Origin: a virus
Virus record (IMG/VR): IMGVR_UViG_3300033182_000145
Location: 1-63,982 of that record
Direction: 5' to 3' (one strand)
DNA: 63,982 nucleotides
Shown here: piece after piece, positions 16,301 to 37,535 of the stretch
Numbering within the stretch: position 1 is the stretch's first letter
Layout: each line of letters opens with the position of its first letter
Notes under the pieces: model-generated
What the model was told of the DNA's origin: nothing
Seen by the model: only the letters and a program-made list of their open reading frames with translations
Databases searched by the model: none
Position numbers and translations under genes: made by a program

Positions 16301-19300
16301 GTATAAAACTTTCTGAAGATAATATAATGGGAATGGGTAAAATCCTATTAAACCGAGCTCAGAACCAAGCTATTGTTCTGTTAAATTCGGCGTTAGGATT
16401 GCAGCCTAAGAAATTAAAGGCAGTTAGAAACTTCTTAAGTTTAAAGCCGGATCAAGATCTTACGGCAAGAGGACAGAATCTTAAGGCTAGCTGGGAAGAA
16501 ATTGTTAGATCTTTGAATACTCCGCACGGACAGCAGACTACGTTGACGGATAGTAATCCTCTAACTACCTTAGATATAGCTATAACTAACCTTACAGCTC
16601 AGCTTAACGATATTGCTGAGATTGAGGGTATTCGTTTTGCGGAGGCAAAAAGAAAGTACGCGCACGCTGAGAAGGGCTTAAACTATTTAAAGAAACTTAA
16701 AAAAGACCATACAGAGTTAGAAGTTGGTAGCGAAGAGTGGGCTACATTCCAAGAAATTGTTCATGGTAAGAAGCAAACATGGAGAACGATCGGTCTCTTT
16801 AAGGCTTTGAATATTCTTAACTCGTCTGCCTACAAAGCAAACATTGAAAGAATAACAGCTGTAGCTGAAGACTTTGGGCTTACTGGCTTTGATGCTAAGG
16901 ACTGGCTGGGATTAGAAAACTTAGTTCTATATCACTTGAATCTTCCTACAGCTTCGTCTAAAAGATCTTATGCACACGGAGCCGATACGAACGGAATCTT
17001 TAACGAAAGAGCTGTCGTTAGTCCTGAGCTTTATGAAAACTTCAGAGCTAAAATGAAACAGCTGGAAGCTAAGCAGGGTGCTCCTATTTCACGTCAACAG
17101 TTCTTAGCTGAGTTTAACGAGTTCTTATCCGCAGAAAATATTGATAGTATGGGAATGTGGGATCTCAAAGATAACGTTATGCGGAGAAAGGAAGATGGAG
17201 AACTAAAGAGCAGAGAAGAAATACAGGAAGAGATTGGAGAATTGCTGGATATCGGGGCTCTTCTTTATTGGGCTCAGAATGATAAACTTCCTCCGGGTAT
17301 GTTTGAGAATCAGTTAGATGATCTGGGAGACGTTGAGGTTTATAAGCATGTCTTAGAGGACATGGCTCGTAAAACTGAAGAAAGAGCTGAAGGTATTATT
17401 ACTGAGCAGCAAGAAGAAGAGATGGCCTATAGAGAGGGATATCATGAATTCTTAAGACTGAAGGCAAAAATTGCTGGCGGCTTAGTCCATCCTCGGGTGG
17501 CTAATGATTTAGATTTGCCTGTTGTTGATTTCTACACTAGAGAAAGAAGCATATCGGAAATGGTCCCCACCTCAGCGGGACAACTTCATATCTCTACGGT
17601 TAATCCCAAGGGTGTCTTATCAATGATGCCTCAGACCAAGAGAATGTCTTTCCATAATATCGGTATTCCTGTTCTTCAAGAGATAGCTATTAGAAGACAG
17701 ATTAATAATATTCTTAGTCCGGTTCAAAGATTAACTAATGATCAAACGTTAACTAAGGAAGAAGGATTAATCTCAGAAGAGTTCTTAGGATATCGTGGAC
17801 CTTGGAAAGAAGAAAGTCTTCCTAAGCCGTTGCCTATTACTATTGATGAGATTGCTGACCTCAGAGCTAGAGATACCGATGGGTCTCACCTTAAGGCAAT
17901 ACGTATTATTACAGATCTTAGAGTGTGGGCAGACGAAAGAGGAATGGATCCCACTAAGATTCAGGGAGAAGCAATCCCCTTCTGGTTTGTCGTAAAGGAA
18001 ATGGAACAAGCAAGACATAATTTATTCCTTCGTAGTGAAGAACAAGCTTTCTCGGAGGAGGGGGGACTAGCCGGAGTAGATTTTGTACGTCAGCAAAACA
18101 GATTAAACTGGTTATCGGATTTACATAATATTACTTATTATTCACGAGATCTTAAAAACAGAGAATTATCTGGATTAACTATTGAAGAACAGTCTCGTAA
18201 ATTAGCGCTAATGACAAAAGCTAGTGAGGAAACTTGGATTAACTTACTACGTAATAGGGTGTCTGAAGACAACCCATACGGTAAGGCTTTGTCTTCCCCC
18301 ACAAAGGTTGCGGCTGCTTTAGAAATGATTCTGCCTAGAGAAGCATTCTTAAGAATTAAGAGAAGTATTGATTCAAATGCAGAAATAGTCTGGAGTGAGT
18401 TAGCTGAGCTTGCCTCTATCTGGCAGCAGACTGACTTTAACTACTACCTTGTCTCTCAGTTCTATAACAACAGTGTCTTCCCTGATGCACTAAAGGAATT
18501 TTCTATTGAAGAGAACGGCAAGACAATTCATCCTTATAGGGATATGCTTGTTCCTGAATTAGACGAGAACGGTGTTGTTAAGAAAGACTCAAAGGGTAAG
18601 GACTTAATGATCGAGGTTTGGAAGGATCCTAATTCTTGGATTAACCATATCAAACCAGAGCATAAGGAAGAGTTAATTCAAATCGCTCAGAGATTAGTTG
18701 ACGATCCTGAAAAGGGAGTTGGGAATGTTGTCTTTGATACACTGATGATTGAAAAGTTAGAAACAGATCCAAGGGGCCGAAGCAAGGCCGCTAGAGATAT
18801 GTACTATGCTTTATTCCCGAAGGAAGATGTTAACGCTGTTAGCGAGTCTACATCATTGAAGTCTCCCTTCCCAGCTCTACAGGCACAGGGGCAGTCTTCT
18901 AGTAAGGTTCGAGGAACGGGAGGAGATTTAGTTCTTACGCCAGCTAGAGCCTTAGAGATGTTAACCTTCTTAGAAAACTTTAATTTCTACCAGAGAGTTC
19001 AAACTCAGGAATTACTGGATGGTAAGGCTATTGGTGCTGTTATGGATAGCTCTCGAGAAGAAGCTATAAACAGAGAAACCTTAAGCCGTAGACTTAGAAA
19101 TGGCTTAGGACATAGCCAAACAGAAATGACTAAGGCTAGCCAGCAAACCAGTGAGGCTATTCTTCGGTTAGCTCGTGGAAGACAGACTAGAACAATTACA
19201 AACGATAAGCAAACATTATATGGTGCTCATCCAAAGGTGGTTGATTTAGATCATTACACAAACTTTGACAGCTCTTACACAGATAACTTTGCTCCTGCGT

Positions 19301-22300
19301 GGGTTGAATCCTTTATTGGAAACTTGTCTAAGATTGAACACTTATGGAAAACCACAGGAATAGATAACTTCGTTCGTCTTGATAGGGGAGAAAGAAATGT
19401 TCTTGCTTACTTAGAAGAACTTAAGAAAACTGTAAGAACAGAACAAAAAGGACAAGCCTTAGCAGAAACTATAGCTTTAAGTATCTTGATAGATAATGTA
19501 GGCAAAGATTTAGTAATAAGCCCTGAAGAAATTCACACCTTCTTTAATAGAGATCTAATGACAGAAGAAGATATTTCAAAAGGTATTGATGTGGCTACTG
19601 GGATGATGCGTCAGATAAACAGGGGGTATAGCTTATATAAAAATAATCCTAACACTGATGTAAGAATGTATCCTGCTTTAGTAAGCTTAGCAAGAGAGGT
19701 GTTTTCTTCGTATGATCTGTCTCAAAAAGACTTAGTTGCAGAGTTTAAAGAACTGTATGTAGAAAAAGTAAACCCAAGTGCTGATGAACAGTTTGGATTT
19801 AGTAGAAAGGACGATACAGTTGAGTTTGAAAATGGAGACTCTGCTTTACATTATGTTCTTACTCACGCATTAGGAGAGGAGTTAGAAACTTTAAACACCC
19901 GTCGAGATATGCCGGATGTTGATTCTTTAACTCCTAAACAGTTCCAGATTATCGGGCAAGATCTTGTCACAGCAGTTCAAACTTCTGAATCATTTGAAAA
20001 AGCTATTAGATCTATAGATCCTACTGGCAATATTAATTCAGATTTGCTTAGACTGGGACAGCAGTTAAGAGATATGGAGAATCAGGGACTGGTTCATAAA
20101 AATAATCTTAAACTGCTCAGAGCTATGATTCTTAGATTACATGATATTTCTCCAGATTGGTTCTCTGATTTTAACTTTGAATATATAGATGCAGCAGAAC
20201 GAACGGCTGCACTTAGAGATGAAGAAGGAAATGTTGTTGTTCGATTAGGACGAGACCTTACTAGACCCTACTCTTCACCCGATGTTGCTCTTACCTTTGC
20301 CCATGAGTTATTCCATGTTGGTAAGTTTAAGTTTGTTGAAAGTAATCCGGGTGTTTGGAATCAGTGGAAGGCTTTATGGGATTCTACTGCGGGCAGATCG
20401 TTAATGCGTAAGCATGTTACAGCTTGGAATAACGGTAAGTTTAATGCCGCAGAATATGACGCATACATGAAAAACCCAGACGAGTATCTTGCTGCCTTAG
20501 GTTCTTTCTTTATGATGAATGATATCTTGCCTGTGGTAGATACCTTAACTGTAGAAGAACGAAACATCAATAATAAAACGATGTCTGTTTTAGGTAAGGT
20601 TTTAGACTTTGTTCGCAACATGTTTAATAGAGTATCTAATGTGTGGGCTAATTTCTATTCAGCAAATCCTGAATTATCTAACCACGTTGAGACCCTGATA
20701 CAACGTACTATGGGTTGGGACCACAAGGCAGGAAAGGGATTAAAGGCTGATAAAATTGCTGGAGCTCCCACAGAAATGTTTATGAGAATGAAGTATCCTC
20801 AAGCTGAAGAAACCTTCAATTCAACCGATTTTGAAAAGAAGGTAAGACAGTTCGTAGCTTTAAGAGAAAAACACGATAATAATACTATTGGTCGAGAAGA
20901 GTTAGTGGAGTATGATGGCCTTCGTGAATACTTCTCTACGTCTAACGAAGCTCAGGTACATACTAACTTAGGTCAAACTAGGCAGGAGTTTTATGAAACT
21001 AAGCTCTTTATTGAGGAACATTATATGACTCAAACAGGGAGTATTGATATCACGAAGATATTGAACGATACTCCTCAGAGTGTCCGAGGTATTATTCCTC
21101 GAGAACAGGCTAGAGATAGTATTATTCTTACCGCGACTCAGATGATGATGGACCAGATTAAAAGTAGATTTGGGCCTACGATTCAAAGAAACGCAGGAGA
21201 GATAGCAGCTACCTTAGGAGCTGGTGTTAGTAAGTTATTCGGCAAAGAATCTAGATTTATGGAGCAGCAGTTAGCAGAGTGGACTACTGGTAAGGCGGGG
21301 ACCAACTTTACCTTTAACGGTCCTCATCAGTTTGTTGCTCACCTTACTCAACTTATCGATGATAATATTGGAACCAGCTTAGGCCAGTATACAAACGTAC
21401 ATGGTCTTTACTCGTTAAACAATATCATGAATCAGTTAGATTTATTCTCTGAAAACATTCTTCCGGCAATTACCGGGATTCAAAAGATAACTAGAAACTT
21501 TGTGCAAAGAGTTGTTGATACTCCTAATCTTGATCCTAAGGCTAGAGATATGGAGACCAAGATAAACTCTGAGATGGCAAAGCTTTTTGAAAACCCCAAT
21601 CATGAGATTAATTTCGATAATGATGAAAACCTCTTAAAATTAAACACCGAAAAAATTGGAGAGCTTCAAGATCATATGAAAACAGTGGCCTCCACCATGA
21701 GAAAACTTTTACAGTCGTATGAAGGTGTTCTTAGGGAATTAGGAGAATCTAGAGAAGGAGCACAGATTCGTACTCCTCTTAGACTGTCTACTAATATACG
21801 GGATACTACGGGAAGCGAAAACTTTAGAGTGGAGTTACGTAAGATCTTTAGGGAAGGTTTGGAGAATAATGATTTAAGTATTGATGCATTAACCATGATC
21901 GAGGGTGGTCTTCTTCCTAGAACTGATAGACGAGCTTCATTGGTAGAAGATTTAGATCGATTGGAGAGAGAGTATCCGGGCTACAGGCAATTCATTGCTT
22001 ATGAGCTGGGCTCTACTTTGCAGACAAGAAGCGAAACACAGCTTACTGAGGATCAGCTTACGGAACGAGGTGAGGCTATTCTTAAGGGATTAAAGAGTGA
22101 TACAACAGAAATTTCTAACCACTCCTTAGGTCTTACTAGGAAAGCTGTTATTGAGATAATGAAGAAGATGCAGAGAGGGGATCTAACGTGGACTAAGATT
22201 GCACGAATGGATAACACTGCTAGACTTCGTGATACTTATATGGCTACAATTAGAGAAGGCTCTACAAAGATTGGAACTGAAAGACTACAGTCTCTTAGTG

Positions 22301-24558
22301 CAATCAAGGAAGAGTTACCCAACTATCTTCACTTCAGTAAGGGGCGAACTGGCTCTGTCCAGAACTACGCCTATAACTATAAAACAGCAATTGATGTTCA
22401 TATTGATAATCTCTTAAACAGAGCATCTGTGGGGATGTATTATCCAAACGATAACTGGATTATTCCTAGTATTGATGTATTGGTAGACAATCCTGCTATC
22501 CGTACTCAGCTGTCTCTGGAGCCTATGCAGATTGTTGAAGACATGAAGCGAGGTACTATCGGAAATCTGTTTGAACGAGCAATGCTTAATAAGTACTATA
22601 ACGTTGAAGGAACCATTGGAGATGTTATTACTCTCTTTGAGGAAAGTATGGAAAGAGCAGTTGATATTAGGAATGATGATGGTTCTGTTTTAAGCGATAC
22701 CGATACTCAGGATATGTTTAATTCTGCTAAGGTTCTTAGAGGAAAGTATCTTACCACGAAGGGAATACATCTTGCTTCTAACAGTCCGTCTAGGGTTGAA
22801 AGATTATTAGGGGATCTTGGTCCGGGCATAACCCGAACAATCTTCGGAGGAAACCTTGCCCTCGCTTCCTTTACGGTGGAAACTATGGCTAGCACTTTCC
22901 AAGAATTGTTTGGCCGAGGTAATATCATGGGAGCAGTTAGAACTATTCTTGGCCCGGTAACTGGCTTAACGCCGGGTGGTGTTACCCTTAACTCTGAACA
23001 GAAAGCTAAGCTTCAGCGAGACTTAATGCATACTATTGAAGCATTGACTAAGGGATATCTCCCTGATTATGAGAAGCCCTCTACGGCTGTCCAAGAAAAG
23101 GCTCTGACTCGATTCTTTAACTGGACAGGTAAGCACTCCATGCGTCCCGCAGAACATATGTTACGGGTTACGGCTATCTCCAGAGCGGTCTCCTTTAGAA
23201 CATTTGTTACTGAAGGGTTTAGGCAACGGAACAGCAGTGGTAAGATTAAGTTTGTTGCTCTTGCTGAGTCTATTCGTGATAAACCTTTAGATCCGAACAA
23301 CGATGCGGATATTAAAAGCAGATTGAGAGAAGCTGGGTTTAATAACTGGATGGACAAAGATCTGACTATTATCACTTATCTGCTTTCAAATGGTTTATTA
23401 GATATGCAGGTTCAGACTCAATCAGGAGTGGTTGGTCAGAATACTGATGGATTATTCCACGCTTTCCTTGCGGAAATGGAGAAAACCTTGGAAAGTGGGG
23501 ATCCCTATTATAGCACCGGAGATATGTTTAACGAAATCGTAAGAACGATGGACGGTGGTAGTGCAGCTTTCCAGACCAGACAGGCTGTTATTGTGGGATT
23601 GAAAAAGGCAGAGAAGGCCTTTATTGAAGAAATTATTCTTAAACCAAACGCCTTTGATGTGTTTACCCCCGGCGTAACTAAGGGAGGGGAAGTCCAGAGT
23701 GTCGGTGCTTTAGATCCTCTCTTTGAAATCTATCGTCGATACCCCATGATCTTTGTGGGACAGCATATGATGAGGAAGTCTAATAGGTTGCATATAGGAC
23801 GCTACGCCTTTGGTCTGATGAATCTACTTATGCTGGATGTCTTATACATGATGCTACTGAGGTTGGCTATGGGATCTCGTTTAGAAGATATCGAGAAAGA
23901 GTTTGAGGAAAAGCCCACAGAGTTTATGATGAAATACTTAACTAGATTACCTATCCTTGGGCGATACATGGGCTTAGTTGGAGAGGCTGTCTCTACGATG
24001 TACAGTGGATATGGTAGAGAGCCCGGAGGATTTATTCCTGTGGGTGCTCTGTACGCGGGCTATAAAGGCATTCACAGGGCTGTCAAGAGCCAGATGAATG
24101 ATGCTCCCTCGAAGTGGTCTGATACCGTAAACTCGCTCAGAGTGGTTCCTATCGTCGGAGACAGGCTCCTATCGCTTGCCTTCTATACGGCTATGGGAGA
24201 CAACATTACTAGAAGAAATATTAACAGCAGTGGAACTACTAGGGATTTGGCTTCTAGAGTCAGAGGAAGCTACGGCGTTCCTCTGGAGGCTGTAAACTAT
24301 ATGTGGCCTGCTTTGACTTCAGAAATGGTACGGGAGTTTATGGTAGGCCAAAACATTAGCTGGCCTGCCTACGAGATGGCCAATGAGCCCTCTCCTTATC
24401 AGATGGCTCCGATGCCGACTACGCCTCCCCCGGCTGTTGAAGAACCCACTGCTCCAACACCTACACCGACCCTACCTACTACGCCTGTCGTAGATAGATT
24501 GGGAGAACAGAAAGGAACGTCAAGCGAGCTTGTCGAAAGACTAACAGGGGGAAGCTGA
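10372..24558 (+). CDS. Giant virion-associated protein, 4728 aa, with HExxH metallopeptidase-like site
   Basis: One uninterrupted frame encodes 4,728 residues. Visible parts: a hydrophobic, Gly/Ala-rich segment near 263-295; a long Lys/Glu-rich coiled-coil stretch about 700-1040; a zinc-peptidase-like signature FAHELFHVG with HExxH starting near residue 3311, followed about 60 residues later by DEYLAALGSFF, which could give the third ligand; further hydrophobic segments near 4156 and 4477-4500; and a Pro/Thr-rich tail near 4683-4706. It has the place and size logic of T7 gp16 (ejection protein) or a phage polyvalent protein delivered with DNA. I find no single-subunit RNA polymerase motifs of the N4 virion type and no transglycosylase motif. 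AGGAGG precedes the start. Metal binding is an inference from the motif. Confidence 0.85.
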   Translation: MTDFSWAYNPLDIKPTSTMVRQIQKEELKKYQEGFQSVPRTSEGAQYESTLANPTIFIDKAGKRVRGHMTALQAGAEAMAARYSRGYTSKNRAFSQYVARMALGGRDLSTWDPDGKAPLLSLNDNQEQLLTKFLGENTWNNNIFAYNELGDLPVLNNFYQTPEELFEDPAPANWNTAAALEQLELADPNLYYSLEYSLGGKERLEAVVEKARNPVEFFFKLNDAQQMQAIAQSFEEFSKEANWIEESGVFIFNFIRDGILNDPDMAASMAITGLLSLTTAGIGGAAYAAIKLAKNANKIATVLKNVKRFNKVQMGTRWVSMHLPENIGPYLMQSKFFKDSYQHMSKLQQVGVNALANATEGLITGSLAETANQFKLVDAGIQEKVSGAAIAREGLLEMAISPLINPAIGRLYTGISTLSIGAGRLTYNAGAYFGKQLNLVTPDLGKTLSKIGKEASQNFSPEGLQRTIHVYEAKDRLKTNLSALLGEEQNIGDWIDGDEMMPNLLNIIRRVTNLDDTVLLDSLNTSLEAFIADPENKNITMDPMGLAVGLIGSLALDPEINAKMQQQGSDVFTGALQQFLATREIVSESKNSMEYTGEEMTPTQFAEWIVENNAEYLTMPPETKAEAKKEAGDKWDDMSHSERTKKTEDVHNRMVEDQNAELNDIAQEQVGTTQKLETETKTGASVTGTPLNPPSPGVNPVVHAQKEANRVAEQLEKELNKITKELKEARKRNMPLSDIKARRRKVVNQLKKIRTAAKRLTRLQDQFLNAMGATKKDIELGKKIMELTNNFEAVKEQVLPQLEIEGKLLELTNRSLLLTRLFLDEEAEGTLFERTIRSYADRSKITEEDITLLEEIKLFIEEDLKPYHDQGAKLLTPEGKLYKYIIHILDNKGKINYNDYHKNFIKGLTELPRTLSKAMQSVHGETFARYKSLEDEILNLEREQRLERKKAVIAEGRKQVLELAGIATMPSVLQERKAVRLENESRKEILLRLVDEFVDEKSTTITQVDSQIDSSRLVTEKTKAAAKRQGATDEQIAEDIAKAEADADKFAGKSVMEEGADMPSAVAKTADTQKALGKLTDEQLDRVDKLIDSHDYDADDLAIHIPVVWVSNGRIEVASKSEVLNLGSKEEAKAAVSEAKASRVEVKKKTITKMNPADPEFAAVIDDKNLKKKLGKKPLKIEEVKKRISEFYEKKIATLTKGLRPSIRTNRAPRYYPKVRDETHKYLHNFTDDEILSVDYDYIERIESNRMDLSEVVRSPEEELKELTQWKVNLINLFRYFSNTNHKDLENGVHVFRIIASMPSYFRKISLDGSIHIFLQEALMDQENFGVDDDISTQRFDLNKVIELVSEQENKAFRATDGIKKRMAQEYGAKIEEQLRREGDPSNVNDLETALEFITKVRQALDFYYQSNARPNGPDGPVRYVLEVDEFGRATETTDSTTVYVAAVRTGITARIHQLTRAKFKNKFTALLEKAKKEGAKGSTDQEVITDYIVNNLNLMNSSELDTAGYVEFTLEGFGDGTLAWGNDPGTVGGAIVDTFLGRAIPELYNLQAVDSIEASNINERSIDQGESLIVTPAGIGDLNLAAPVGLWKIARVVENARWRSRITAILEAAREGKLTAKQKKILEKWKEDQVIPEDISPTDDQLGAFLLPQIFGHNMQEKAMTRDQQIEAITYFLSDIPQISASIIQDSITLSRGSVVRFRDTAEAPQPLSLGNMESMPKMGTMNAIPISRIGELLALESMIPNLTNYTTNMVKFADRYAREYREKWEAANPGKEFDQSIIFDPAAYDDMGASIDSIIHTLSLAATRAPQVSDALANLEAMFIMPNGTETDFELLKLDEKGNIVVSDEARKRGFTSRAEEDYYINTGITLVSKMNEMFGENHPLRKQAGEFIGVLNWLTDNNITTAIEYQNKIKELEESGNQKELAKADALREFLKIPIMRKLYGGGLPSFRSEFIGRTANSKKVIADLNKAFGIKLSEDNIMGMGKILLNRAQNQAIVLLNSALGLQPKKLKAVRNFLSLKPDQDLTARGQNLKASWEEIVRSLNTPHGQQTTLTDSNPLTTLDIAITNLTAQLNDIAEIEGIRFAEAKRKYAHAEKGLNYLKKLKKDHTELEVGSEEWATFQEIVHGKKQTWRTIGLFKALNILNSSAYKANIERITAVAEDFGLTGFDAKDWLGLENLVLYHLNLPTASSKRSYAHGADTNGIFNERAVVSPELYENFRAKMKQLEAKQGAPISRQQFLAEFNEFLSAENIDSMGMWDLKDNVMRRKEDGELKSREEIQEEIGELLDIGALLYWAQNDKLPPGMFENQLDDLGDVEVYKHVLEDMARKTEERAEGIITEQQEEEMAYREGYHEFLRLKAKIAGGLVHPRVANDLDLPVVDFYTRERSISEMVPTSAGQLHISTVNPKGVLSMMPQTKRMSFHNIGIPVLQEIAIRRQINNILSPVQRLTNDQTLTKEEGLISEEFLGYRGPWKEESLPKPLPITIDEIADLRARDTDGSHLKAIRIITDLRVWADERGMDPTKIQGEAIPFWFVVKEMEQARHNLFLRSEEQAFSEEGGLAGVDFVRQQNRLNWLSDLHNITYYSRDLKNRELSGLTIEEQSRKLALMTKASEETWINLLRNRVSEDNPYGKALSSPTKVAAALEMILPREAFLRIKRSIDSNAEIVWSELAELASIWQQTDFNYYLVSQFYNNSVFPDALKEFSIEENGKTIHPYRDMLVPELDENGVVKKDSKGKDLMIEVWKDPNSWINHIKPEHKEELIQIAQRLVDDPEKGVGNVVFDTLMIEKLETDPRGRSKAARDMYYALFPKEDVNAVSESTSLKSPFPALQAQGQSSSKVRGTGGDLVLTPARALEMLTFLENFNFYQRVQTQELLDGKAIGAVMDSSREEAINRETLSRRLRNGLGHSQTEMTKASQQTSEAILRLARGRQTRTITNDKQTLYGAHPKVVDLDHYTNFDSSYTDNFAPAWVESFIGNLSKIEHLWKTTGIDNFVRLDRGERNVLAYLEELKKTVRTEQKGQALAETIALSILIDNVGKDLVISPEEIHTFFNRDLMTEEDISKGIDVATGMMRQINRGYSLYKNNPNTDVRMYPALVSLAREVFSSYDLSQKDLVAEFKELYVEKVNPSADEQFGFSRKDDTVEFENGDSALHYVLTHALGEELETLNTRRDMPDVDSLTPKQFQIIGQDLVTAVQTSESFEKAIRSIDPTGNINSDLLRLGQQLRDMENQGLVHKNNLKLLRAMILRLHDISPDWFSDFNFEYIDAAERTAALRDEEGNVVVRLGRDLTRPYSSPDVALTFAHELFHVGKFKFVESNPGVWNQWKALWDSTAGRSLMRKHVTAWNNGKFNAAEYDAYMKNPDEYLAALGSFFMMNDILPVVDTLTVEERNINNKTMSVLGKVLDFVRNMFNRVSNVWANFYSANPELSNHVETLIQRTMGWDHKAGKGLKADKIAGAPTEMFMRMKYPQAEETFNSTDFEKKVRQFVALREKHDNNTIGREELVEYDGLREYFSTSNEAQVHTNLGQTRQEFYETKLFIEEHYMTQTGSIDITKILNDTPQSVRGIIPREQARDSIILTATQMMMDQIKSRFGPTIQRNAGEIAATLGAGVSKLFGKESRFMEQQLAEWTTGKAGTNFTFNGPHQFVAHLTQLIDDNIGTSLGQYTNVHGLYSLNNIMNQLDLFSENILPAITGIQKITRNFVQRVVDTPNLDPKARDMETKINSEMAKLFENPNHEINFDNDENLLKLNTEKIGELQDHMKTVASTMRKLLQSYEGVLRELGESREGAQIRTPLRLSTNIRDTTGSENFRVELRKIFREGLENNDLSIDALTMIEGGLLPRTDRRASLVEDLDRLEREYPGYRQFIAYELGSTLQTRSETQLTEDQLTERGEAILKGLKSDTTEISNHSLGLTRKAVIEIMKKMQRGDLTWTKIARMDNTARLRDTYMATIREGSTKIGTERLQSLSAIKEELPNYLHFSKGRTGSVQNYAYNYKTAIDVHIDNLLNRASVGMYYPNDNWIIPSIDVLVDNPAIRTQLSLEPMQIVEDMKRGTIGNLFERAMLNKYYNVEGTIGDVITLFEESMERAVDIRNDDGSVLSDTDTQDMFNSAKVLRGKYLTTKGIHLASNSPSRVERLLGDLGPGITRTIFGGNLALASFTVETMASTFQELFGRGNIMGAVRTILGPVTGLTPGGVTLNSEQKAKLQRDLMHTIEALTKGYLPDYEKPSTAVQEKALTRFFNWTGKHSMRPAEHMLRVTAISRAVSFRTFVTEGFRQRNSSGKIKFVALAESIRDKPLDPNNDADIKSRLREAGFNNWMDKDLTIITYLLSNGLLDMQVQTQSGVVGQNTDGLFHAFLAEMEKTLESGDPYYSTGDMFNEIVRTMDGGSAAFQTRQAVIVGLKKAEKAFIEEIILKPNAFDVFTPGVTKGGEVQSVGALDPLFEIYRRYPMIFVGQHMMRKSNRLHIGRYAFGLMNLLMLDVLYMMLLRLAMGSRLEDIEKEFEEKPTEFMMKYLTRLPILGRYMGLVGEAVSTMYSGYGREPGGFIPVGALYAGYKGIHRAVKSQMNDAPSKWSDTVNSLRVVPIVGDRLLSLAFYTAMGDNITRRNINSSGTTRDLASRVRGSYGVPLEAVNYMWPALTSEMVREFMVGQNISWPAYEMANEPSPYQMAPMPTTPPPAVEEPTAPTPTPTLPTTPVVDRLGEQKGTSSELVERLTGGS

Positions 24559-24875: not shown

Positions 24876-25001
24876 GGGGGTCACGAATTTGCGTGGGACA
24901 TAGGAGGGGGTTGGCTCCGTGCCTTCCCCCCCGTACCCCCTATGCAACTGCTGCCTGCATAGTGGGGTCTGTCTCACTGGCGGCACAGGAGGTTAGTCAC
25001 A
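24876..25001. other. GC-rich structured spacer opening the island
   Basis: A perfect 7-bp hairpin, CTATGCA/TGCATAG, lies at 24940-24962. A competing longer pairing joins CATAG..GGGGG near 24899 to CCCCCTATG ending at 24944. The two are mutually exclusive because both use CTATG, so this could be a switch or an attenuator. AGGAGG ahead of 25002 is the ribosome site. Base composition jumps here relative to the preceding gene. Confidence 0.45.
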
Positions 25002-25256
25002 ATGACTAGCAAATCGGTTTACCATGCTCTGAGTCGTATCCTCTACGGCTACGGACTGGCGTTGTTCTTCCTCGGTATGTGGTTCATCTACTACCAGACG
25101 ACTAACAGTTTCGAACTGGAGGTCTCTGGTATGGGACCAGCCACTGCGAGTTTGGTGTCATGGTTCCTCCTCGGGCCTTGCATCTCATTCGTTGGGGTGG
25201 CGACATACTTCGTGGGAATCTACTGCGAACTCCGTCGGGACGAAGAGAAGTCATGA
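25002..25256 (+). CDS. Small two-span membrane protein, 84 aa
   Basis: 84 residues with two predicted membrane helices, LALFFLGMWFIYY near 19-32 and a second near 48-72, and a charged C-terminus. A good AGGAGG site precedes the ATG. It overlaps the next gene by 4 nt (ATGA). It has GC-rich codons like its island neighbours and unlike the late genes just upstream. Function unknown; a holin or superinfection-type inner membrane protein is possible. Confidence 0.65.
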   Translation: MTSKSVYHALSRILYGYGLALFFLGMWFIYYQTTNSFELEVSGMGPATASLVSWFLLGPCISFVGVATYFVGIYCELRRDEEKS

Positions 25257-25471
25257 GTCATTCCTTCAAGAAGGGAGACTTCGTGACTACTCCGCCCCGA
25301 AACGGTGCCCAGCACCGTGGACGGGCGAAAGTAGTAGTCGTTGGTCGGAAGAAGGTAACGGTTAGGTTTATGCCTGATCACCCTAAATCCGACACAGCCA
25401 AGTTCAAGCCTGAGCAGCTGAGGTACTGGCTCAAGGGCAACGTGCATCGCAACAAGCGAACGCACGGCTGA
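25253..25471 (+). CDS. Small basic protein, possible SH3/KOW-like fold, 72 aa
   Basis: 72 residues beginning MSHSFKKGDFVTTPP, then GRAKVVVVGRKKVTVRF, a beta-rich basic pattern resembling small SH3-like or KOW RNA/DNA-binding proteins. Start at 25253 inside the ATGA overlap with the membrane protein gene. It is followed at once by six hairpins and then the divergent RNA polymerase gene, so an RNA-binding or transcription role is tempting but unproven. Confidence 0.65.
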   Translation: MSHSFKKGDFVTTPPRNGAQHRGRAKVVVVGRKKVTVRFMPDHPKSDTAKFKPEQLRYWLKGNVHRNKRTHG

Positions 25472-25698
25472 CACCGTGGTGCTCCTTAACGGGAGCACTA
25501 CGGCTTCGGGTTCTTCGGAACCCTAGAGAGAGATGTACATCCTCTCTGGATCCCAAGGAAGGGAAGAGAGAAGGATGTATGCTAGACGGCTAACGTCTAG
25601 TCAAGCCTTGCAAGCGACAACCCTAACGGGAATCGCTTGCATTGTGCCTCGAGCCGTTCGAGGCATGCGTATGTTCAAACCTTTTGGAGTTAAATCCT
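25472..25698. promoter_or_regulatory. Six-hairpin array preceding the divergent RNA polymerase gene
   Basis: Consecutive hairpins: 25479-25498 (GTGCTCC/GGAGCAC); 25508-25523 (GGGTTC-TTCG-GAACCC); 25525-25547 (AGAGAG/CTCTCT); 25582-25600 (CTAGACG/CGTCTAG); 25610-25640 (GCAAGCGA/TCGCTTGC, with inner CCC-TAAC-GGG); 25645-25665 (TGCCTCGA/TCGAGGCA). All the stems quoted are perfect. Three of them carry TAACG at the loop. The gene start follows at 25699. Such density is not expected by chance. It may be a structured leader, a protein-binding site or a set of hairpin promoters. Confidence 0.75.
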
Positions 25699-27438
25699 AT
25701 GGGTAAGAATAAGGCGAAAGAGCAGAGCAAGTTTCTGCTCAGTGTGGTGAAACCCGCTGTGAAGCGATACCTCACCCCTCGGATGACGTTCTTCATCTCA
25801 CGCGGACTTGATGTTCGTGGTGTGATGGATCAGGCTACCCTGCCTGTGTTGCGTGATCCCGAGTTGGTGGCGGTTGTTGCGGAACACGGCTCTGGTGCTG
25901 TTGGAACAGCTGTCCGCAAGGTGGCTGGGAAGGAGTATCAGGACTACGTTCCTGAAAGCGAGATCTCCGTTCGACCCTTGGTCAACGTGAATCCCGTTAT
26001 CCTGTCGGGGAACAACCGCGTTCTGCGTTCTCGGTATGATGACCTCGGTACTCCTCAGAGTTCCGAGCAGTCCTGCCAGTACCAGACCTCGGTTCCCAAG
26101 TTCCTCGACGAGGCTCAGGTTGCTTCGATTGAGAAGTACCGCAGCACGCTTCCTTCTCACTTCGACCCCTCACAGAACGAGCAGGACAAGTTCCTGTCCG
26201 ATCGTGCGGTGTCGTGGATGGGGATGGTCGGTTCCGATGTGTTCTTCGAGCGCTACGACACTGTTTGTGGCGCTCTCCGTGAGTACGCCTCAGGGGAACA
26301 CAACGGAATGCAGAGCAAGGTCATCAGGCATTCGACTCTCATCGAGGAGCCTTACGCTCCTGATGAGGCGAGCCTGAAGGCGGTGGCTCGGCATCTCGGC
26401 TCTCACTTCGGGATGACCCACTCGGAACGTACAAAGTTCCTGTCGGATCAGGGCACTCGTAATGCCTTCTACGCCCGTCACGGGAAGAAGGCATGTGAGG
26501 CTGATAACTTGATCCGCTTGCTGGACGATGTTGACCGTACTGGTCAGACTCGTCGGCTGGTGGAGATCGATCAGGCTCACTCTGGACCGACTATCATCCA
26601 CTCCCTTCTCCGTCTCGACGGTGCAAAGGTGACTGGTAACCTGAATCACGCTGCTTACGAGCACGTCCTTCGGGTCAAGATGGTCAACCAGCTCCTTGCG
26701 ATGTTCCCTCGCCTCCGTTCTGTGGACCGTGCTACTCTCGAGAGCAAGGCCAAGAAGGGGGCAGCTGGTGGTACTTACGGAGCCGGACCCTCTAGGGTGG
26801 GTAAGGCTCTGCTGGGCATCGTTCCTCGTGATGAGGACGACGGCCCGGATGAGTACGAGGCTGATCCGAGGCTGTTGGAGTGGCTCGGCATTCCTGCCGA
26901 CACTCCTTCCAAGGAACTGCCCAAGAAGGTTGGGCAGCCCTTCCACCGGGCTCTGCACCTCGCGGCTCCCTATCTGGCACGCTACCACGTGCTGGTGAAG
27001 GAGATCTACAGGGAGAGCAATGGTCGGGCCTCGTTCTCCATTGGTGATGCCAAGTTGGAGCTCTTCTCCACTCGGTACAACAAGGAGGACACCGAACGTG
27101 TCAGCTTCCGGACTTCTCTCGGAGTCATGCACAGGCATCTGTTCTGTGTGGAAGAGGACAAGTACGGTCTGGGTTGGGCAGCAAGGATTGCCCACATGCT
27201 TGATGCCTTCATCAAGCGGATGGTGGTCCTTGATCTGGCGGAGCGTGGAATTCCTTGTCGGTCTTTCCACGATGCTCTCCAGATTCCACTGTGGGCTATT
27301 GCGTTTGCAAAGCGTCGGTGGAACTACTGGCACAACTACGCCATGCAGAACAACCCTCTGGTGCAGCTCGGCTGCGCTGAGGTTGCGAAGCGTGACGTGG
27401 TGCTCATGCCGGATGACGCGGTTCAGCTCTGCTTCTGA
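25699..27438 (+). CDS. Divergent compact single-subunit RNA polymerase
   Basis: 579 residues from the ATG at 25699 (GGAG 10 nt upstream; a TTG at 25642 lies inside a hairpin and is rejected). Polymerase signatures: motif A VEIDQAHSGP with Asp291 and SG spaced exactly as in T7 RNAP's D-G-S-C-S-G, followed by D..G..V.GNL like T7's; motif B with K352, then Y360-G361 in GGTYGAG; motif C RSFHDALQIP with H524-D525. The K-to-Y gap of 8 equals T7's and the B-to-C distance (173) is close to T7's 181. The usual motif B Arg four residues before Lys is Glu348. It is far smaller than T7 RNAP (883) and unlike the second polymerase at 35 kb. It is GC-rich, preceded by hairpins and followed by a terminator. 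A family A DNA polymerase is less likely because motif C lacks HDE. Confidence 0.72.
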   Translation: MGKNKAKEQSKFLLSVVKPAVKRYLTPRMTFFISRGLDVRGVMDQATLPVLRDPELVAVVAEHGSGAVGTAVRKVAGKEYQDYVPESEISVRPLVNVNPVILSGNNRVLRSRYDDLGTPQSSEQSCQYQTSVPKFLDEAQVASIEKYRSTLPSHFDPSQNEQDKFLSDRAVSWMGMVGSDVFFERYDTVCGALREYASGEHNGMQSKVIRHSTLIEEPYAPDEASLKAVARHLGSHFGMTHSERTKFLSDQGTRNAFYARHGKKACEADNLIRLLDDVDRTGQTRRLVEIDQAHSGPTIIHSLLRLDGAKVTGNLNHAAYEHVLRVKMVNQLLAMFPRLRSVDRATLESKAKKGAAGGTYGAGPSRVGKALLGIVPRDEDDGPDEYEADPRLLEWLGIPADTPSKELPKKVGQPFHRALHLAAPYLARYHVLVKEIYRESNGRASFSIGDAKLELFSTRYNKEDTERVSFRTSLGVMHRHLFCVEEDKYGLGWAARIAHMLDAFIKRMVVLDLAERGIPCRSFHDALQIPLWAIAFAKRRWNYWHNYAMQNNPLVQLGCAEVAKRDVVLMPDDAVQLCF

Positions 27439-27462
27439 GCTGACACCACACAAACGGACCGG

Positions 27463-27494
27463 CGAGGGGGCCCGAAAGGGCCTCCTCGTCTTTT
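27463..27494 (+). terminator. Strong intrinsic terminator after the divergent polymerase gene
   Basis: An 11-bp stem (one G-T pair) from 27463 to 27488 with a GAAA tetraloop, followed by TCTTTT. It lies 24 nt after the stop, a textbook factor-independent terminator. It would separate the polymerase gene from 27560. Confidence 0.85.
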
Positions 27495-27503
27495 CGAGTT
27501 CTG

Positions 27504-27559
27504 TCCCTACCATCTGTTTGGTAGAGGGCAGCGCTCTAGGCTCCTATTAGGAGAAAGTC
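27504..27559 (+). promoter_or_regulatory. Hairpins covering the ribosome site of the next gene
   Basis: CTACCA/TGGTAG forms a hairpin at 27507-27524. Then CTCCTA-T-TAGGAG at 27541-27553 can pair the AGGAG Shine-Dalgarno of the gene at 27560 with the CTCCT just upstream, so translation of that gene may be controlled by folding. Confidence 0.45.
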
Positions 27560-28078
27560 ATGACTGAAATCGTGACACAGGAGAAGTTCACCTACAAGGG
27601 CTTCTCGGCTGATGCCCCGGACATCGAGATCCGGTTCGTCGTCTGGAACAAGATGGACTGGCCCAGCAGGATCGTTCACACCGATCGCTGGACAGTCTTC
27701 GTGATCCCGGCGGACCTCAAGGGACTCACCTCTCTCGGCACGAAGTATCTCAGGGATGCTTCGCAGGAAGAGGTCTCTGAGTTCATGGATCAGACGATCA
27801 CGGACAAGCAGCAGCTGGATTTCCTGCCTACGAAGAACCTCACGGAACTTCGTGAACTCAAGGGACAGCCCACGCTTGAGACTCTCAAGAGTGGTGTCCG
27901 GTTGAGGGCTCGTGTGACTCTGGCTGATATCCCCGAATCTTTCGAGATCATCGGAGAAATCTCCCCAGATCACAACAGTGCCTCATGGTCACTGGAGAAG
28001 GCAATCAAGACACACTTCCCCGGATGCTTCCTCAAGCACCGGAACAAGTGCTCGTCTAATCCGAGTCCCTTCGGGTGA
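27560..28078 (+). CDS. Unknown GC-rich island protein, 172 aa
   Basis: 172 residues of mixed alpha/beta character, starting MTEIVTQEKFTYKGF, with no motif, signal or membrane helix that I recognise. It carries the GC-rich codon use of the island. It is flanked by hairpins on both sides, with its ribosome site partly sequestered. I cannot assign a function. Confidence 0.75.
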   Translation: MTEIVTQEKFTYKGFSADAPDIEIRFVVWNKMDWPSRIVHTDRWTVFVIPADLKGLTSLGTKYLRDASQEEVSEFMDQTITDKQQLDFLPTKNLTELRELKGQPTLETLKSGVRLRARVTLADIPESFEIIGEISPDHNSASWSLEKAIKTHFPGCFLKHRNKCSSNPSPFG

Positions 28079-28501
28079 GCTGACGACTATCGTCACCGGC
28101 CCCCGCCTCGTGCGGGGGTCGGAAACGATAGCCCTCTGGCTATCCTGTAGAGAGCCTGTCAAACTGGCAGGTTTTCACACAGTTCCTCTGAGGACTGAAG
28201 GGTGGCAAGGATCTGCAACCCAACTCAACATAAGGCAACGCAATATGATGTGGAGTCCATCACCAACACATACAACATATAGTATGACGTAAAGTTGGGT
28301 TATATGATAGGACATACCTAAGGTATACCTAAGGAGAAGGTTAGGGTAGTAAAAGTGTGTGGGTATTATAAGTTAGGGGAAGGCAACGTATAACCTAAGG
28401 TATAAACCAACGTTAACATAACGGCAGAACCTTCGGAGGACCTCGGTTCCGCTGGGCAGCCCTAACCTCAGCGTAGGTTGGGCGTAGAAAGGAGACTTCT
28501 C
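28079..28501. other. Noncoding 423-bp region: five hairpins, then AT-rich repeats
   Basis: First part: hairpins at 28082-28094 (GACGA/TCGTC), 28096-28122 (11 bp including CCCCCGC/GCGGGGG, loop CTCGT), 28127-28144 (GATAGCC-CTCT-GGCTATC), 28155-28171 and 28180-28197. Second part (about 28200-28440) is AT-rich and contains an 11-bp tandem repeat ATACCTAAGGT at 28314-28335 and a related ATAACCTAAGG near 28390. No convincing gene. It could hold an origin, promoters or a structured RNA. AAAGGAG before 28502 is the next ribosome site. Confidence 0.6.
28314..28404. repeat. CCTAAGG-type short repeats in AT-rich spacer
   Basis: ATACCTAAGGT at 28314-28324 is repeated at 28325-28335 with one change at the last base, and ATAACCTAAGGTATA occurs near 28390-28404. 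The element CCTAAGG is nearly palindromic (CCTTAGG). Iterated short sites in an AT-rich gap are typical of protein-binding or replication-origin regions. Confidence 0.45.
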
Positions 28502-28714
28502 ATGAAGTTCACGGTCAAGAAGACCACCGGGGATACCCCTCAGGGTGTCCAGAACGTTCTCCGTTCCGCTCATGGTGTCGAAGGCACCCCTCGTGAGTGG
28601 CCGGATAGCACCATCCGTCACTGGCTGGGCCGGGCGAAGGTCGTTAACCTCGACCTGACCGGCGATGACGTGCCCTCTCGTTGGAAGGCACTGGCCAAGG
28701 AGACCCACGCATAG
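28502..28714 (+). CDS. Small unknown protein, 70 aa
   Basis: 70 residues starting MKFTVKKTTGDTPQ, with TIRHWLGRAKVVNLD near the middle, basic at both ends and small enough for a nucleic-acid-binding or host-takeover peptide. A strong AAAGGAG precedes the ATG at 28502. GC-rich like its island neighbours. Not recognised. Confidence 0.65.
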   Translation: MKFTVKKTTGDTPQGVQNVLRSAHGVEGTPREWPDSTIRHWLGRAKVVNLDLTGDDVPSRWKALAKETHA

Positions 28715-29261
28715 TCGAGGGTCTGCTGTTTTCCGGATAGTGGGTATACGTACCCCTATCCCTCAGGTACACTCCTCGGACTGTGCCTGAGGGATATCTA
28801 TGCTACCCCTCGTCCAGAGGAACCCGCACAAGCCAGCCCAGAGCAGGCGGGGGGTAGGCGTTATGTCTTAAACATAACTAGGGCGCTCGTCAGAGACTTG
28901 TGTAGACGCTCGCTGCAAGCAAGCGCATGGGAAAGACCACCCCCAATCCGACTGAACTGGATGAAATGGTCCGCAGAATGGGATGCAACTGCGACAACAA
29001 CATCCCCAGCATTTATATAGAAACTGAAGCCAGATCGTATGCTGGAACAGTATAAAGATAGCGCCTCTAGTCTCGGGCGGGAACCATCGTAAGGTGGAGA
29101 GACTCAGCCGCGAACCCTTAGACGCGGCGCTGCCTGAGCAAGCAGAACAAAAAGGCTCCAATACACGAGAAGGGACTAGTGCCATGCGCAGTCCTTAAGG
29201 ATACCTTAACCATACCGCAAGTGGATCAGTAATTTTCCACGAATTGCTGAAAGGAGTTAGA
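28715..29261. other. Structured largely noncoding region, 547 bp
   Basis: Hairpins: 28736-28760 (10 bp with one bulge, TACG loop); 28760-28793 (CCCTCAGG/CCTGAGGG plus inner pairs); 28860-28878 (GTTATGT-CTTAA-ACATAAC); 29069-29104 (AGTCTC/GAGACT); 29107-29128 (GCCGCG/CGCGGC), the last competing with AGCGCC 29060-29065 pairing to GGCGCT 29126-29131. Near 29191, CCTTAAGG is followed by ATACCTTAA, echoing the CCTAAGG repeats upstream. This may be a structured RNA gene, an origin or the packaging end region. It contains one weak small ORF listed separately. Confidence 0.55.
28927..29055 (+). CDS. Possible small protein, 42 aa
   Basis: An ATG-started frame encoding MGKTTPNPTELDEMVRRMG followed by CNCDNN and a short tail. 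Amino acid composition looks protein-like. There is no good ribosome site and the frame lies in a structured spacer. Treat as tentative. Confidence 0.3.
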   Translation: MGKTTPNPTELDEMVRRMGCNCDNNIPSIYIETEARSYAGTV

Positions 29262-33403: not shown

Positions 33404-33431
33404 TTGACACTTGTCGATAATAGTATATAAT
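33404..33431 (+). promoter_or_regulatory. Perfect sigma70-type promoter
   Basis: TTGACA at 33404-33409, 16-nt spacer, TATAAT at 33426-33431, in a gap (33288-33446). Predicted start near 33438, so the transcript would begin at the AGGAG ribosome site of the next gene, almost leaderless. It drives 33447 onwards, including DUF932 and probably the T7-type RNA polymerase. Confidence 0.8.
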
Positions 33432-33641: not shown

Positions 33642-33789
33642 GTCAGACTATATCCGTCCTAAGAAGAAAAGAAAATATCCCACCCGTAAAAATGTAAAGG
33701 ATTCCCTACGTGATTGGGAGTCTGCGGATTGGGAAGAATTTGGTAGTGATACAATCGAAGGAAATAACAATGCACGAAATGACGACTAA
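33610..33789 (+). CDS. Small basic-to-acidic protein, 59 aa
   Basis: 59 residues. A very basic first half (RRKNREDKSKS, RPKKKRKYPTRK) and an acidic second half with repeated Asp/Trp/Glu. GGAGG precedes the ATG. It overlaps the upstream gene by 32 nt and the DUF932 gene by 20 nt in other frames, so it is plausible but not certain. Confidence 0.5.
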   Translation: MRRKNREDKSKSDYIRPKKKRKYPTRKNVKDSLRDWESADWEEFGSDTIEGNNNARNDD

Positions 33790-34741
33790 TGATTCTGCCG
33801 TCTACTTCAAGAACCCCGCATGGCATGGCCTTGGCAATGTCATTGAAGATCCTATTGATATCTGGGATGCAATGTTTCAGGCTGGTCTCAACTGGACTGT
33901 TACCAAGCATAAAGGTATTTCGGTAGGAAATGATATTTACTCACCCAACTACCACGCTATTGTGCGTAACGATACCATGGACATCCTTGGTATTGTGAGT
34001 GAGCATTACAAGATTCTTCAGAACGAAGACATCTTCCGTCTTGCTCAATGCTTTGGCTCTGATGCCAAGGTTGAGAGTGCTGGTTCTATTCAGGACGGAC
34101 GCAAGCTTTACCTGCTGCTTCGAGGTACACCATTTGATGTTATGCAAGGTGATATCGTCGAGCGTTACATGGCTCTCCTGTGGGGCCATGATGGTACGCT
34201 GTCAGCCCACATGTTCCCCACATCCGTTCGTGTTGTGTGCAAGAACACCATGGACATGGCGCTGGGCCAAGCAGACCGGAAGGTAATCATCAAGCACTCC
34301 GGTGACATGGAGAGCAAGCTTGACTTTGCACGAGAAGCTATCTATCACTTCAAGGAAACTGGTAGTTTGTTTGCGGATGCCACCACTTACTTGGCTAAGC
34401 AATCTGCTGACACTGCTACTATTAATCGTTTCTTCTGGAACATCTACGAGTCCATGCACGGAGAAATCCCGGTGGATCCTCAGACCCAGAAGGAAGAGAC
34501 TCAGAAGGTTAAGGCTGTAACTACGATGTCCAAATGGGTAGAAACCCTTGAGGATGAAGCCAAAGACTTTGGCGTAAACCTTTGGATTGCAGCAAACGCC
34601 GTGACGAATGACATCCAGCACAGCACAGGAACCAGAGGACGCAAGAAGACCCCCGCTTCTGCTGCCTACGGTAACCTGACCGGCAATGGTGCCAAGGAAT
34701 CGTCCAAGGTGCTTGCCGCAGCTATTCAAATGGCAAAGTAA
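33770..34741 (+). CDS. DUF932 / phage-plasmid LGT protein, 323 aa
   Basis: 323 residues. The start ...FKNPAWHGLGNVIEDP and the segments YHAIVRNDTMDILGIVS and SVRVVCKNTMDMAL are diagnostic of the DUF932 family carried by phages and plasmids, of unknown biochemical role. ATG at 33770 with GAAGGA upstream. Located between the sigma70 promoter and the RNA polymerase gene, so expressed early. A G/C-rich hairpin follows. Confidence 0.9.
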   Translation: MHEMTTNDSAVYFKNPAWHGLGNVIEDPIDIWDAMFQAGLNWTVTKHKGISVGNDIYSPNYHAIVRNDTMDILGIVSEHYKILQNEDIFRLAQCFGSDAKVESAGSIQDGRKLYLLLRGTPFDVMQGDIVERYMALLWGHDGTLSAHMFPTSVRVVCKNTMDMALGQADRKVIIKHSGDMESKLDFAREAIYHFKETGSLFADATTYLAKQSADTATINRFFWNIYESMHGEIPVDPQTQKEETQKVKAVTTMSKWVETLEDEAKDFGVNLWIAANAVTNDIQHSTGTRGRKKTPASAAYGNLTGNGAKESSKVLAAAIQMAK

Positions 34742-34810: not shown

Positions 34811-35110
34811 ATGGGACTATCAATTGATGGACACGACCAAGGATATGGTGGTAGTTTCAATGCGCACAAGCATTGGAAGAAGTTAAGAGAAAAGCACAGA
34901 AAGAATGATGCCCACAAGGCCAGAGGTGGTAATAGAATATGGAAGCCAGAAGTTTATTCCTCCACTGGTGCTGGCAAAGGCGACAAAGAAAGAAAATCAG
35001 ATGTTCCTAAGGAAGTTTATGACTTGAATTATGATCTTGCTTTTGGTAAAATAACAAGAGAAGAACACACTCAAAAACTAAAGGAACTTGGATTTGAAGA
35101 TATGGGATAA
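34811..35110 (+). CDS. Unknown protein, 99 aa
   Basis: 99 residues, basic, Gly/Lys-rich: GHDQGYGGSFNAHKHWKKL, then STGAGKGDKERKSDVP. The C-terminal half is helical. GGAGG precedes the ATG. The RNA polymerase start lies in its 3' end. I do not recognise it. Confidence 0.7.
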   Translation: MGLSIDGHDQGYGGSFNAHKHWKKLREKHRKNDAHKARGGNRIWKPEVYSSTGAGKGDKERKSDVPKEVYDLNYDLAFGKITREEHTQKLKELGFEDMG

Positions 35111-37535
35111 ATTAAGCAGACAGGACCAGGACAAACGTATCTCTGCTCAATACGACTACGAACAGACCATGCTAACCTATGGTCGGGATAGATACTGGCG
35201 TGACTACGACCGTGCTCCCGACGAAGGTATCCCTGAACAAGAGATGATTGACTCTTCTATCCTCGAGTTGGAAGAGGTATATCAGGAGTGGATAGATACT
35301 GTGTGTCAGTCCACCAAATCTCCGCAGTGGCTGTACCCCCTTCTTGAGCTGGGTGCTAGGAAGATGGCTGATATTACTATACGTGCTGTAGTTAGGTACT
35401 GGTTTACTAGTAGTTTCTGGAATAGTTGGAACGATGAGTTACACACTCCGCCACTGGCTCAGACAATTGCTACTGCTATCTCCCAAGATGCGTGTGATAT
35501 CATTTCATTCCAAAGAGCAAAAAATAATTACAAGAGTGACTGGCAGGCTCAGTCTAAGTTTATCAAAAACTGGACAACCAAGAGATGCCGTGCTTTCTCC
35601 AAGAAGGTAGAGGAGAACATCAAGCTCTCTATTAAACAGAAGCACGACTTTGGTCATCACATGCTCCGCATTGCTGCGTGTTCTAATATTATTATTCTCA
35701 AACCGCAGACAATCAAGAAGGGCAGATCCTTTAGGAAGTATACGTTCGTTGAGATCCATCCGGAAGTTCTCAAGGAATTACATAACCGACACCAACTATT
35801 AGAAACATCCTGCCTTATCTACAGACCTATGCTTGCACCGCCCGTGCCACACAGTCTGATAGAATCAGGCGGATACCAAACAATCCCTCTCCGAAAGCCT
35901 GTTGTTCAAGGCTACCGATCTAATTTTTTCGGAGAGAAACCAAAGAAGCAGAAGTTCTCTACGCCATCCCAGCAGGTTATTGATGGGTTGAATATTCTCA
36001 TGGAGACCGAGTGGGCTATCAACAAGCCTGTCCTTGAGGTGATGGAGAATATGTTCAAGAATAATACCGGGCTGGCTAACCTCCCCTATTATTCCTTCGA
36101 TGAGTTCATGTTCAATGAGCCCTTCCCTAAAGTTGGGTCAAAAGAAGAGCAAGCCATCTGGTGCTGTAAGAGGGAAGAAGCATGGGGTGACTGGTACAAG
36201 CAGGAGCAGGGGAGAGGGAGAATGTTGGTCCGCCTGAAGCTGGCAGAACAACTGTCAGACTGGCAGTTCTTCTACCATTCCTATACACTGGACTTTAGAG
36301 GACGGGCCTATACTATATGTGAGTTATTATCACCACAGTCTTCGGACTTTGATCGTGGTTTAATTATGTTTGGTACACCTATTAAGCTTACCGAGCGAGG
36401 CAAGTACTGGCAGAAGGTAAACCTTGCCAACCTTTTCGATCAAGACAAGGTAACATTCGATGATCGTGTTAAGTGGGTGGATGATAACTGGGACATGATT
36501 GAACGCATCAACCTCGACCCTTATAGTAATAAGGAGTGGATTGATGATGCGAAGAAGAAGAATAAATCGTGGCAGCGTCTTGCGGCTATTTTTGACATAT
36601 GTCGTGGTGATGGATATTGCTCGATCCCTACTAACCTAGACGGGAAGTGCAACGGTAACCAACACCTGAGTGCAATCATGGGAGATCCTGTTATTGCTAA
36701 GCTCACTGGTGTAAGTCCATCTAACCAACCAGAAGATCTGTATCAGTTTGTTGCTGACAACACAACCGAGTATTGTCAAGAGCACGTAGACGATAACGTA
36801 TGGTACGAGCAGTTCCTTGATCACTGGGATGGTAAGATACAACGACAAGTCACCAAACGTCCTACGATGTGCGATGCTTATGGCCTCACGTTCTATGGTA
36901 TTCAAAAGTACCTGAAGATAGAGGGCCATATGGACTGGGTGGCAAAAGAAAAATCAGGTGCTGCTATTGTAGAGATGGCCCGAGCAATAAAGGGAAGCCT
37001 CGACCGAGCTCTTGTTGAGCCTAACAAAGCCAAAGGCTACCTAAAAGATGTGGCCGATAAGAGCAGCCGACTCAATCAGCATTTGGTTTGGACTACCCCG
37101 AGTGGGTTCAAGGTGGTGCATTACTATAATCAGGTAAGCACCCGGAGATCTTTAGCCAAGCTGTTCAACAACAAAGAACTCACCTTCTTTGTACGAACAC
37201 AAGACGTAGATTCCAGAGGAGCTCGTCAGGCTATCTCACCAAACTTTGTTCACTCATTGGACGCCGCTCATATGATCTTAAGTATTTTAAAGATGCGCAA
37301 GGCTGGCATTGAATACTTCTGTATGATACATGATTCATACGGATGCCACCCAAACTATGTAGATATCATGTCTCAAATTATTAGAGAGACATTCTTAGAG
37401 ATTCATCAAGAAAACCAACTTGAGAATTTTAAATCCGAAGTAGAGTCTAATCTTGGTATTGTACTCCCTGACGTTCCAGAAAGGGGGGACCTCAATATCA
37501 ACTGTGTATTAGACTCTGAATATTTCTTTGCATAA
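35094..37535 (+). CDS. T7-type single-subunit RNA polymerase
   Basis: About 813 residues (T7: 883). Motif A NLDGKCNGNQHLSAI with Asp516; motif B RQVTKRPTMCDAYG with Lys588 and Tyr596; motif C CMIHDSYGCHP with Asp747; and the LDFRGRAYT segment of the palm. All catalytic residues of the phage family are present. It transcribes late phage genes from its own promoters. TTG at 35094 is chosen because AAGGA lies 8 nt upstream; TTG at 35088 is possible but too close to that site. The next likely ATG would trim the N-terminus by some 25 residues. It overlaps the upstream gene by 17 nt. Confidence 0.93.
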   Translation: MKIWDKLSRQDQDKRISAQYDYEQTMLTYGRDRYWRDYDRAPDEGIPEQEMIDSSILELEEVYQEWIDTVCQSTKSPQWLYPLLELGARKMADITIRAVVRYWFTSSFWNSWNDELHTPPLAQTIATAISQDACDIISFQRAKNNYKSDWQAQSKFIKNWTTKRCRAFSKKVEENIKLSIKQKHDFGHHMLRIAACSNIIILKPQTIKKGRSFRKYTFVEIHPEVLKELHNRHQLLETSCLIYRPMLAPPVPHSLIESGGYQTIPLRKPVVQGYRSNFFGEKPKKQKFSTPSQQVIDGLNILMETEWAINKPVLEVMENMFKNNTGLANLPYYSFDEFMFNEPFPKVGSKEEQAIWCCKREEAWGDWYKQEQGRGRMLVRLKLAEQLSDWQFFYHSYTLDFRGRAYTICELLSPQSSDFDRGLIMFGTPIKLTERGKYWQKVNLANLFDQDKVTFDDRVKWVDDNWDMIERINLDPYSNKEWIDDAKKKNKSWQRLAAIFDICRGDGYCSIPTNLDGKCNGNQHLSAIMGDPVIAKLTGVSPSNQPEDLYQFVADNTTEYCQEHVDDNVWYEQFLDHWDGKIQRQVTKRPTMCDAYGLTFYGIQKYLKIEGHMDWVAKEKSGAAIVEMARAIKGSLDRALVEPNKAKGYLKDVADKSSRLNQHLVWTTPSGFKVVHYYNQVSTRRSLAKLFNNKELTFFVRTQDVDSRGARQAISPNFVHSLDAAHMILSILKMRKAGIEYFCMIHDSYGCHPNYVDIMSQIIRETFLEIHQENQLENFKSEVESNLGIVLPDVPERGDLNINCVLDSEYFFA

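Follow-up and report, generated by a model that had tools for sequence, protein, structure and literature searches.

A compact and highly divergent second single-subunit RNA polymerase in a lineage of uncultured T7-like phages

The window analyzed here is the whole stretch of 63,982 nucleotides of the IMG/VR virus record IMGVR_UViG_3300033182_000145. Its first 141 bp are perfectly repeated at its end (1–141 = 63842–63982), so that the assembly has probably closed into a circle of 63,841 bp, the repeat being perhaps a k-mer overlap left by the assembler. As the first-pass annotation had indicated, the window contains a full T7-type RNA polymerase (RNAP) of 813 amino acids (35094–37535, + strand; Pfam RNA_pol, 1e-81), to which we refer as the main RNAP. 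Beside it is a DUF932 protein (33710–34741), located downstream of a perfect sigma-70 site and 79–84% conserved at the same place in relatives. The subject of this work is a second gene on the + strand, at 25699–27438, which codes for a protein of 579 amino acids that we have identified by its motifs, a family profile and an AlphaFold model as a compact single-subunit RNAP. The gene lies within a GC-rich island without strand skew (25001–29000; 53–59% GC vs. about 40–45% around it) that comprises the compact RNAP and several structured spacers and varies between relatives. Among these, gene content is variable up to ca. 30.2 kb and then conserved through the main RNAP.

Upstream of the compact RNAP are the gene for a giant protein of 4728 amino acids (10372–24558), with no match in Pfam or PHROGs, and then lysis-like genes. 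The C-terminal part of the giant protein is only 31–51% identical between relatives whose main RNAPs are 75–93% identical. We considered this protein as a possible virion RNAP (vRNAP) and rejected the idea, since it had no RNAP match. Directly downstream of the compact RNAP there is an ORF of 172 amino acids (27560–28078, +) that is a candidate partner; an ORF of 170–230 amino acids follows the compact RNAP in six other relatives, with homology found for three of them only (G002, G003, and G021). Beyond it, the spacers 28079–28505 and 28715–29260 are long, mostly non-coding and structured (z -5.4 and -3.7, respectively), and do not match Rfam. A scan of the complete island gave no Rfam family at gathering score either.

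The reading frame itself is clear. The amino-acid log-odds of the + frame at 25699–27438 was +72 bits, against zero or less in every other frame, the ATG at 25699 is preceded by a GGAG, and third-position GC is 67%. All the residues that the first-pass annotation had taken as evidence for a polymerase were found in the positions given there, i.e., D291 with S295/G296 (motif A), K352-x7-Y360-G361 and E348 (motif B) and H524-D525 (motif C). Searches with the single sequence, on the other hand, were empty. No family was recovered from Pfam or PHROGs up to E = 10, nothing relevant was found in the PDB (one unrelated match, E = 0.39), tblastn against 50,697 phage records plus plasmids had no match, and hhalign of the single sequence gave E about 0.9, with no profile match. 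A DNA-pattern search with the motif C peptide returned only unrelated ORFs, and the AlphaFold model built from the single sequence was uninformative (pLDDT 39). Since single-sequence comparison was empty, the motifs by themselves could have been due to chance, a reading that is removed by the relatives.

To find these we looked in IMG/VR for phages closely related in the main RNAP (27 loci, 54–76% identity) and screened their records for the compact gene. A recognizable relative was detected in six records (24–32% identity, E down to 2.6e-31). Successive profile rounds added seven records (with a six-member profile), 12 (with a wider set) and two (with a richer profile), and a search seeded with canonical members contributed another five that held both RNAPs. 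The family thus amounts to 32 records besides the window, a count in which some copies are truncated at the end of a contig and one sequence occurs identically in four records. Members P0003, L142, L144, L149 and L150 gave Pfam RNA_pol matches from 1.6e-10 to 4.5e-31. Such canonical relatives, with DFRGR, DATCSGFQH, K-x7-Y, HSLDA and IHDSFG, are plain single-subunit RNAPs. Each of the 50 records newly searched with the compact-family profile also yielded its main RNAP.

In order to avoid leaning on the canonical members, we built a profile from only 11 divergent rows unrecognized by Pfam. This profile matched T7-type RNAPs colinearly with E = 4.6e-14 (probability 98%), while ten column shuffles gave E values of 0.06–0.91 and the reversed profile 0.27. 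The profile–profile alignment with T7 RNAP (E = 4.6e-14 to 2.5e-15) extended colinearly over about 500 columns and set the residues of T7 RNAP and of the compact RNAP in register, R425 with R194, D537 with D291, S541 with S295, G542 with G296, K631 with K352, Y639 with Y360, G640 with G361, H784 with H499, H811 with H524 and D812 with D525. A family A DNA polymerase was discarded as an alternative, as the window's own PolA DNA polymerase was matched by the profile with E = 0.02 and a probability of 2% (hhalign), and the Asp of motif A is followed at +4/+5 by SG, like in RNAPs. The AlphaFold model obtained from the family alignment was confident (pLDDT 86, pTM 0.88), although not fully independent of the canonical members, which are contained in that alignment. 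When it was compared by Foldseek with the PDB, T7 RNAP, yeast mtRNAP and POLRMT ranked first (E down to 5e-12), and in BFVD the phage RNAPs did; DNA polymerases came far lower in both sets. The profile and structural comparisons that had been proposed for this protein thus gave an RNAP fold with the motifs in register. Together with catalytic residues kept throughout the family, they bear out the claim of a second single-subunit RNAP that shares the palm/fingers fold and catalytic residues of the T7-like enzymes (Pfam RNA_pol PF00940, PHROG 414), even if Pfam and PHROG do not recognize it. Judging from alignment and model, the active site of the window copy is intact and the product is very probably a working enzyme.

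The family alignment (22 rows) has a mean column identity of just 21%, and its near-invariant columns include R194, D291, K352, Y360 and D525; the columns of D291, D525 and R194 are kept in 20 of 20 sequences, and those of K352 and Y360 in 20 of 21 each. T7 R627 does align with E348, i.e., a Glu replaces the Arg as originally noted, but this replacement, taken at first as a possible sign of altered nucleotide handling, is nothing special, given that members of the family have E, R, S, A, K, V, L, D or I at this unconserved position. More notable at the sequence level is the weakened DxxGR element of the window, reduced in comparison with T7 to the Arg alone (C190, L193, R194); the Asp and Gly are present in most relatives and the Arg in 20 of 20. 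This erosion, the scant conservation of the protein beyond its active site and the absence of catalytic residues from two relatives (the K352 equivalent in L082 and the Y360 equivalent in P0005) would be expected of a former RNAP that has degenerated into a non-catalytic protein, for example a regulator or a DNA-binding protein. However, the window keeps R194, D291, K352, Y360, H524 and D525, and the active-site columns are among the most conserved at this low identity, the opposite of what the decay of a pseudo-enzyme would produce, so that we regard degeneration as improbable for the window copy. The motif C His is also missing in P0007, L147 and L082, and because of these few losses some compact copies may be inactive or otherwise employed.

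Nearly all the difference in size from T7 RNAP (579 vs. 883 amino acids) falls before R194. The spacing of R194/D291/K352/Y360/D525 stays near that of T7, with 97/61/8/165 residues (112/94/8/173 in T7), whereas the Arg of DxxGR is found 231 residues closer to the N-terminus than R425 (194 residues vs. 425), and a full promoter-binding domain is absent. Since the loss sits before R194, most of the T7-type promoter-binding domain is missing. Parallels come from N4-like phages, in which a single phage is known to have more than one RNAP of the single-subunit type. N4 RNAPII (gp15 + gp16, Schitoviridae) is among the smallest members of the superfamily, has a truncated N-terminus and requires cofactors (PMC4496689). 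The compact RNAP resembles it in the reduced N-terminus, in being the second single-subunit RNAP of the phage and in a possible need for cofactors. However, N4 RNAPII is a heterodimer of 673 amino acids encoded by adjacent genes, while here all the motifs are in one ORF coding for a single chain, and the companion is a full T7-type RNAP instead of the giant virion enzyme of N4. In one tree N4 RNAPII grouped with the compact clade (92/84), a placement that carries a long-branch warning.

Of the records reached via the main RNAP, 17 have a length of 50 kb or more, and the compact RNAP was found in 16 of them; the exception, G063, may be incomplete. In relatives the gene is located ca. 6–11 kb upstream of the main RNAP on the same strand, and in this lineage of uncultured T7-like phages the slot of the family is fixed, ahead of the block of early genes. 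This recurrence bears on the integrity of the contig. The abrupt climb to 53–59% GC and the loss of strand skew at ca. 25–29 kb are features that a foreign fragment joined onto a T7-like phage contig would leave, but a homologous gene occupies the same slot in dozens of independent contigs, its third-position GC is higher than that of the main RNAP in 21 of 21 genomes, and the window closes with its 141-bp end repeat, which makes an assembly chimera hardly credible.

In the trees the compact family formed a single clade (support 100/100) separate from the main RNAP and the T7-type RNAPs, with long branches that leave finer placement unsure. A recent duplicate of the main RNAP would account for a second enzyme of the same superfamily in the same genome, but this separation and the absence of BLAST similarity to the main RNAP render it very unlikely. 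One genome does have a second RNAP that groups with the main ones. In G077 the compact slot is occupied by an RNAP of 700 amino acids (L172:1079–3181), placed as the sister of the main RNAPs (98/99). Its origin is different, and therefore the slot has been filled by second RNAPs from two origins, an argument in favor of a function at this position. The pace of change is also uneven. In G001, G002 and G003 the main RNAPs are 89–93% identical and the compact RNAPs only 18–42% (17.6% between G001 and G002); in G059, G062 and G072, the compact RNAPs are 86–90% identical and the main RNAPs 78–91%. By these comparisons the compact gene diverges, or is exchanged, very fast.

The leader of the gene (25472–25698, +) is folded into six successive predicted stem-loops (25474–25503, 25508–25523, 25535–25580, 25581–25601, 25609–25641 and 25644–25666), with -106.5 kcal/mol vs. 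-68 in shuffles (z -7.7). Leaders of 250 nt were strongly structured (z ≤ -2) in 19 of 21 related compact genes. Just 3′ of the gene, a 13-bp GC-rich hairpin with a GAAA loop followed by CTTTT (27461–27490, +) looks like a terminator from its sequence, although a consensus scan reported a hairpin there on the - strand only. The coding sequence is itself strongly structured (z about -10, 12–18% excess against a null preserving dinucleotides and protein), and excess structure was found with such shuffles in the compact genes of relatives as well. By the same measure N4 early and middle genes mostly reach 10–17%, T7 early genes show none and MS2 about 30%. We had considered the idea of an RNA-replicon-like gene and set it aside, because a structured coding sequence is not unique, so that the observation serves as no more than a lead; such an excess may mark those genes that phage RNAPs transcribe.

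Sites resembling the sigma-70 consensus were asymmetrically distributed, seven with at least 11/12 positions on the + strand of the window and none on the - strand. A perfect one (12/12; 33404–33431, +) and another with 11/12 at 33105 are upstream of the DUF932/main-RNAP genes. In nine of ten genomes sites of at least 11/12 sit in the interval that separates the two RNAP genes, as a rule a few kb 5′ of the main one, and in none of the ten was one found shortly 5′ of the compact gene. This distribution of consensus sites suggests that the main RNAP is transcribed by the host and the compact gene is not, and lends no support to the early role that had been put forward for the compact RNAP. A search for phage promoters within the window gave no convincing shared motif.

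These features bring to mind the N4 vRNAP (gp50), which belongs to the same superfamily and works from hairpin promoters (PMC4496689). Read-through from the lysis genes could place the synthesis of the compact RNAP late, and the enzyme would then be packaged and injected into the next cell to start early transcription there. The position of its gene, on the same strand as the giant structural gene and the lysis-like genes and behind them, the strong hairpins 5′ of it, and the absence in ten genomes of a consensus host promoter shortly before it, when the main RNAP operon has them, are all consistent with such a packaged initiator. Nevertheless, nothing found supports a virion location, the N4 enzyme is a virion protein of ca. 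3,500 amino acids unlike the compact RNAP in size and architecture, a terminator-like hairpin lies 3′ of the gene, and the upstream hairpins share no stem or loop sequence. We take this role as a tentative possibility. The hairpin template that the first-pass annotation had suggested stands only in part, as a strong hairpin array does precede the gene, which is circumstantial, but its use by the enzyme found no support.

The explanation that we consider likely is that of a catalytically competent, N-terminally reduced, DNA-dependent single-subunit RNAP, from a family apart from the main RNAP and at a fixed slot, with a small promoter set of its own. It would most likely transcribe a few phage-specific promoters unused by the main RNAP. 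As the usual promoter-binding N-terminus is mostly absent, initiation would probably require a partner protein, or else DNA that is melted or forms a hairpin, like in N4 RNAPII. A bolder version, which we hold to be rather unlikely, is that of a specificity cassette in which a compact RNAP, initiating on DNA or RNA with hairpin structure, is swapped between phages together with its structured control region. If that were true, co-infecting relatives would be unable to use each other's second transcription program.

The enzyme class is known, and so is the presence of multiple single-subunit RNAPs in N4-like phages. Among the open-licence papers searched, none described a second, compact RNAP for T7-like phages, and two single-subunit RNAPs in one phage were described for N4-like phages only. 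What has emerged is a large and apparently unrecognized family of very small single-subunit RNAPs that have diverged in sequence almost to the limit while keeping the active site, and hence show what such an enzyme needs. Small orthogonal RNAPs are also sought as laboratory tools. For the phages themselves, the reason for keeping a fast-changing second polymerase alongside a slow one becomes a testable matter.
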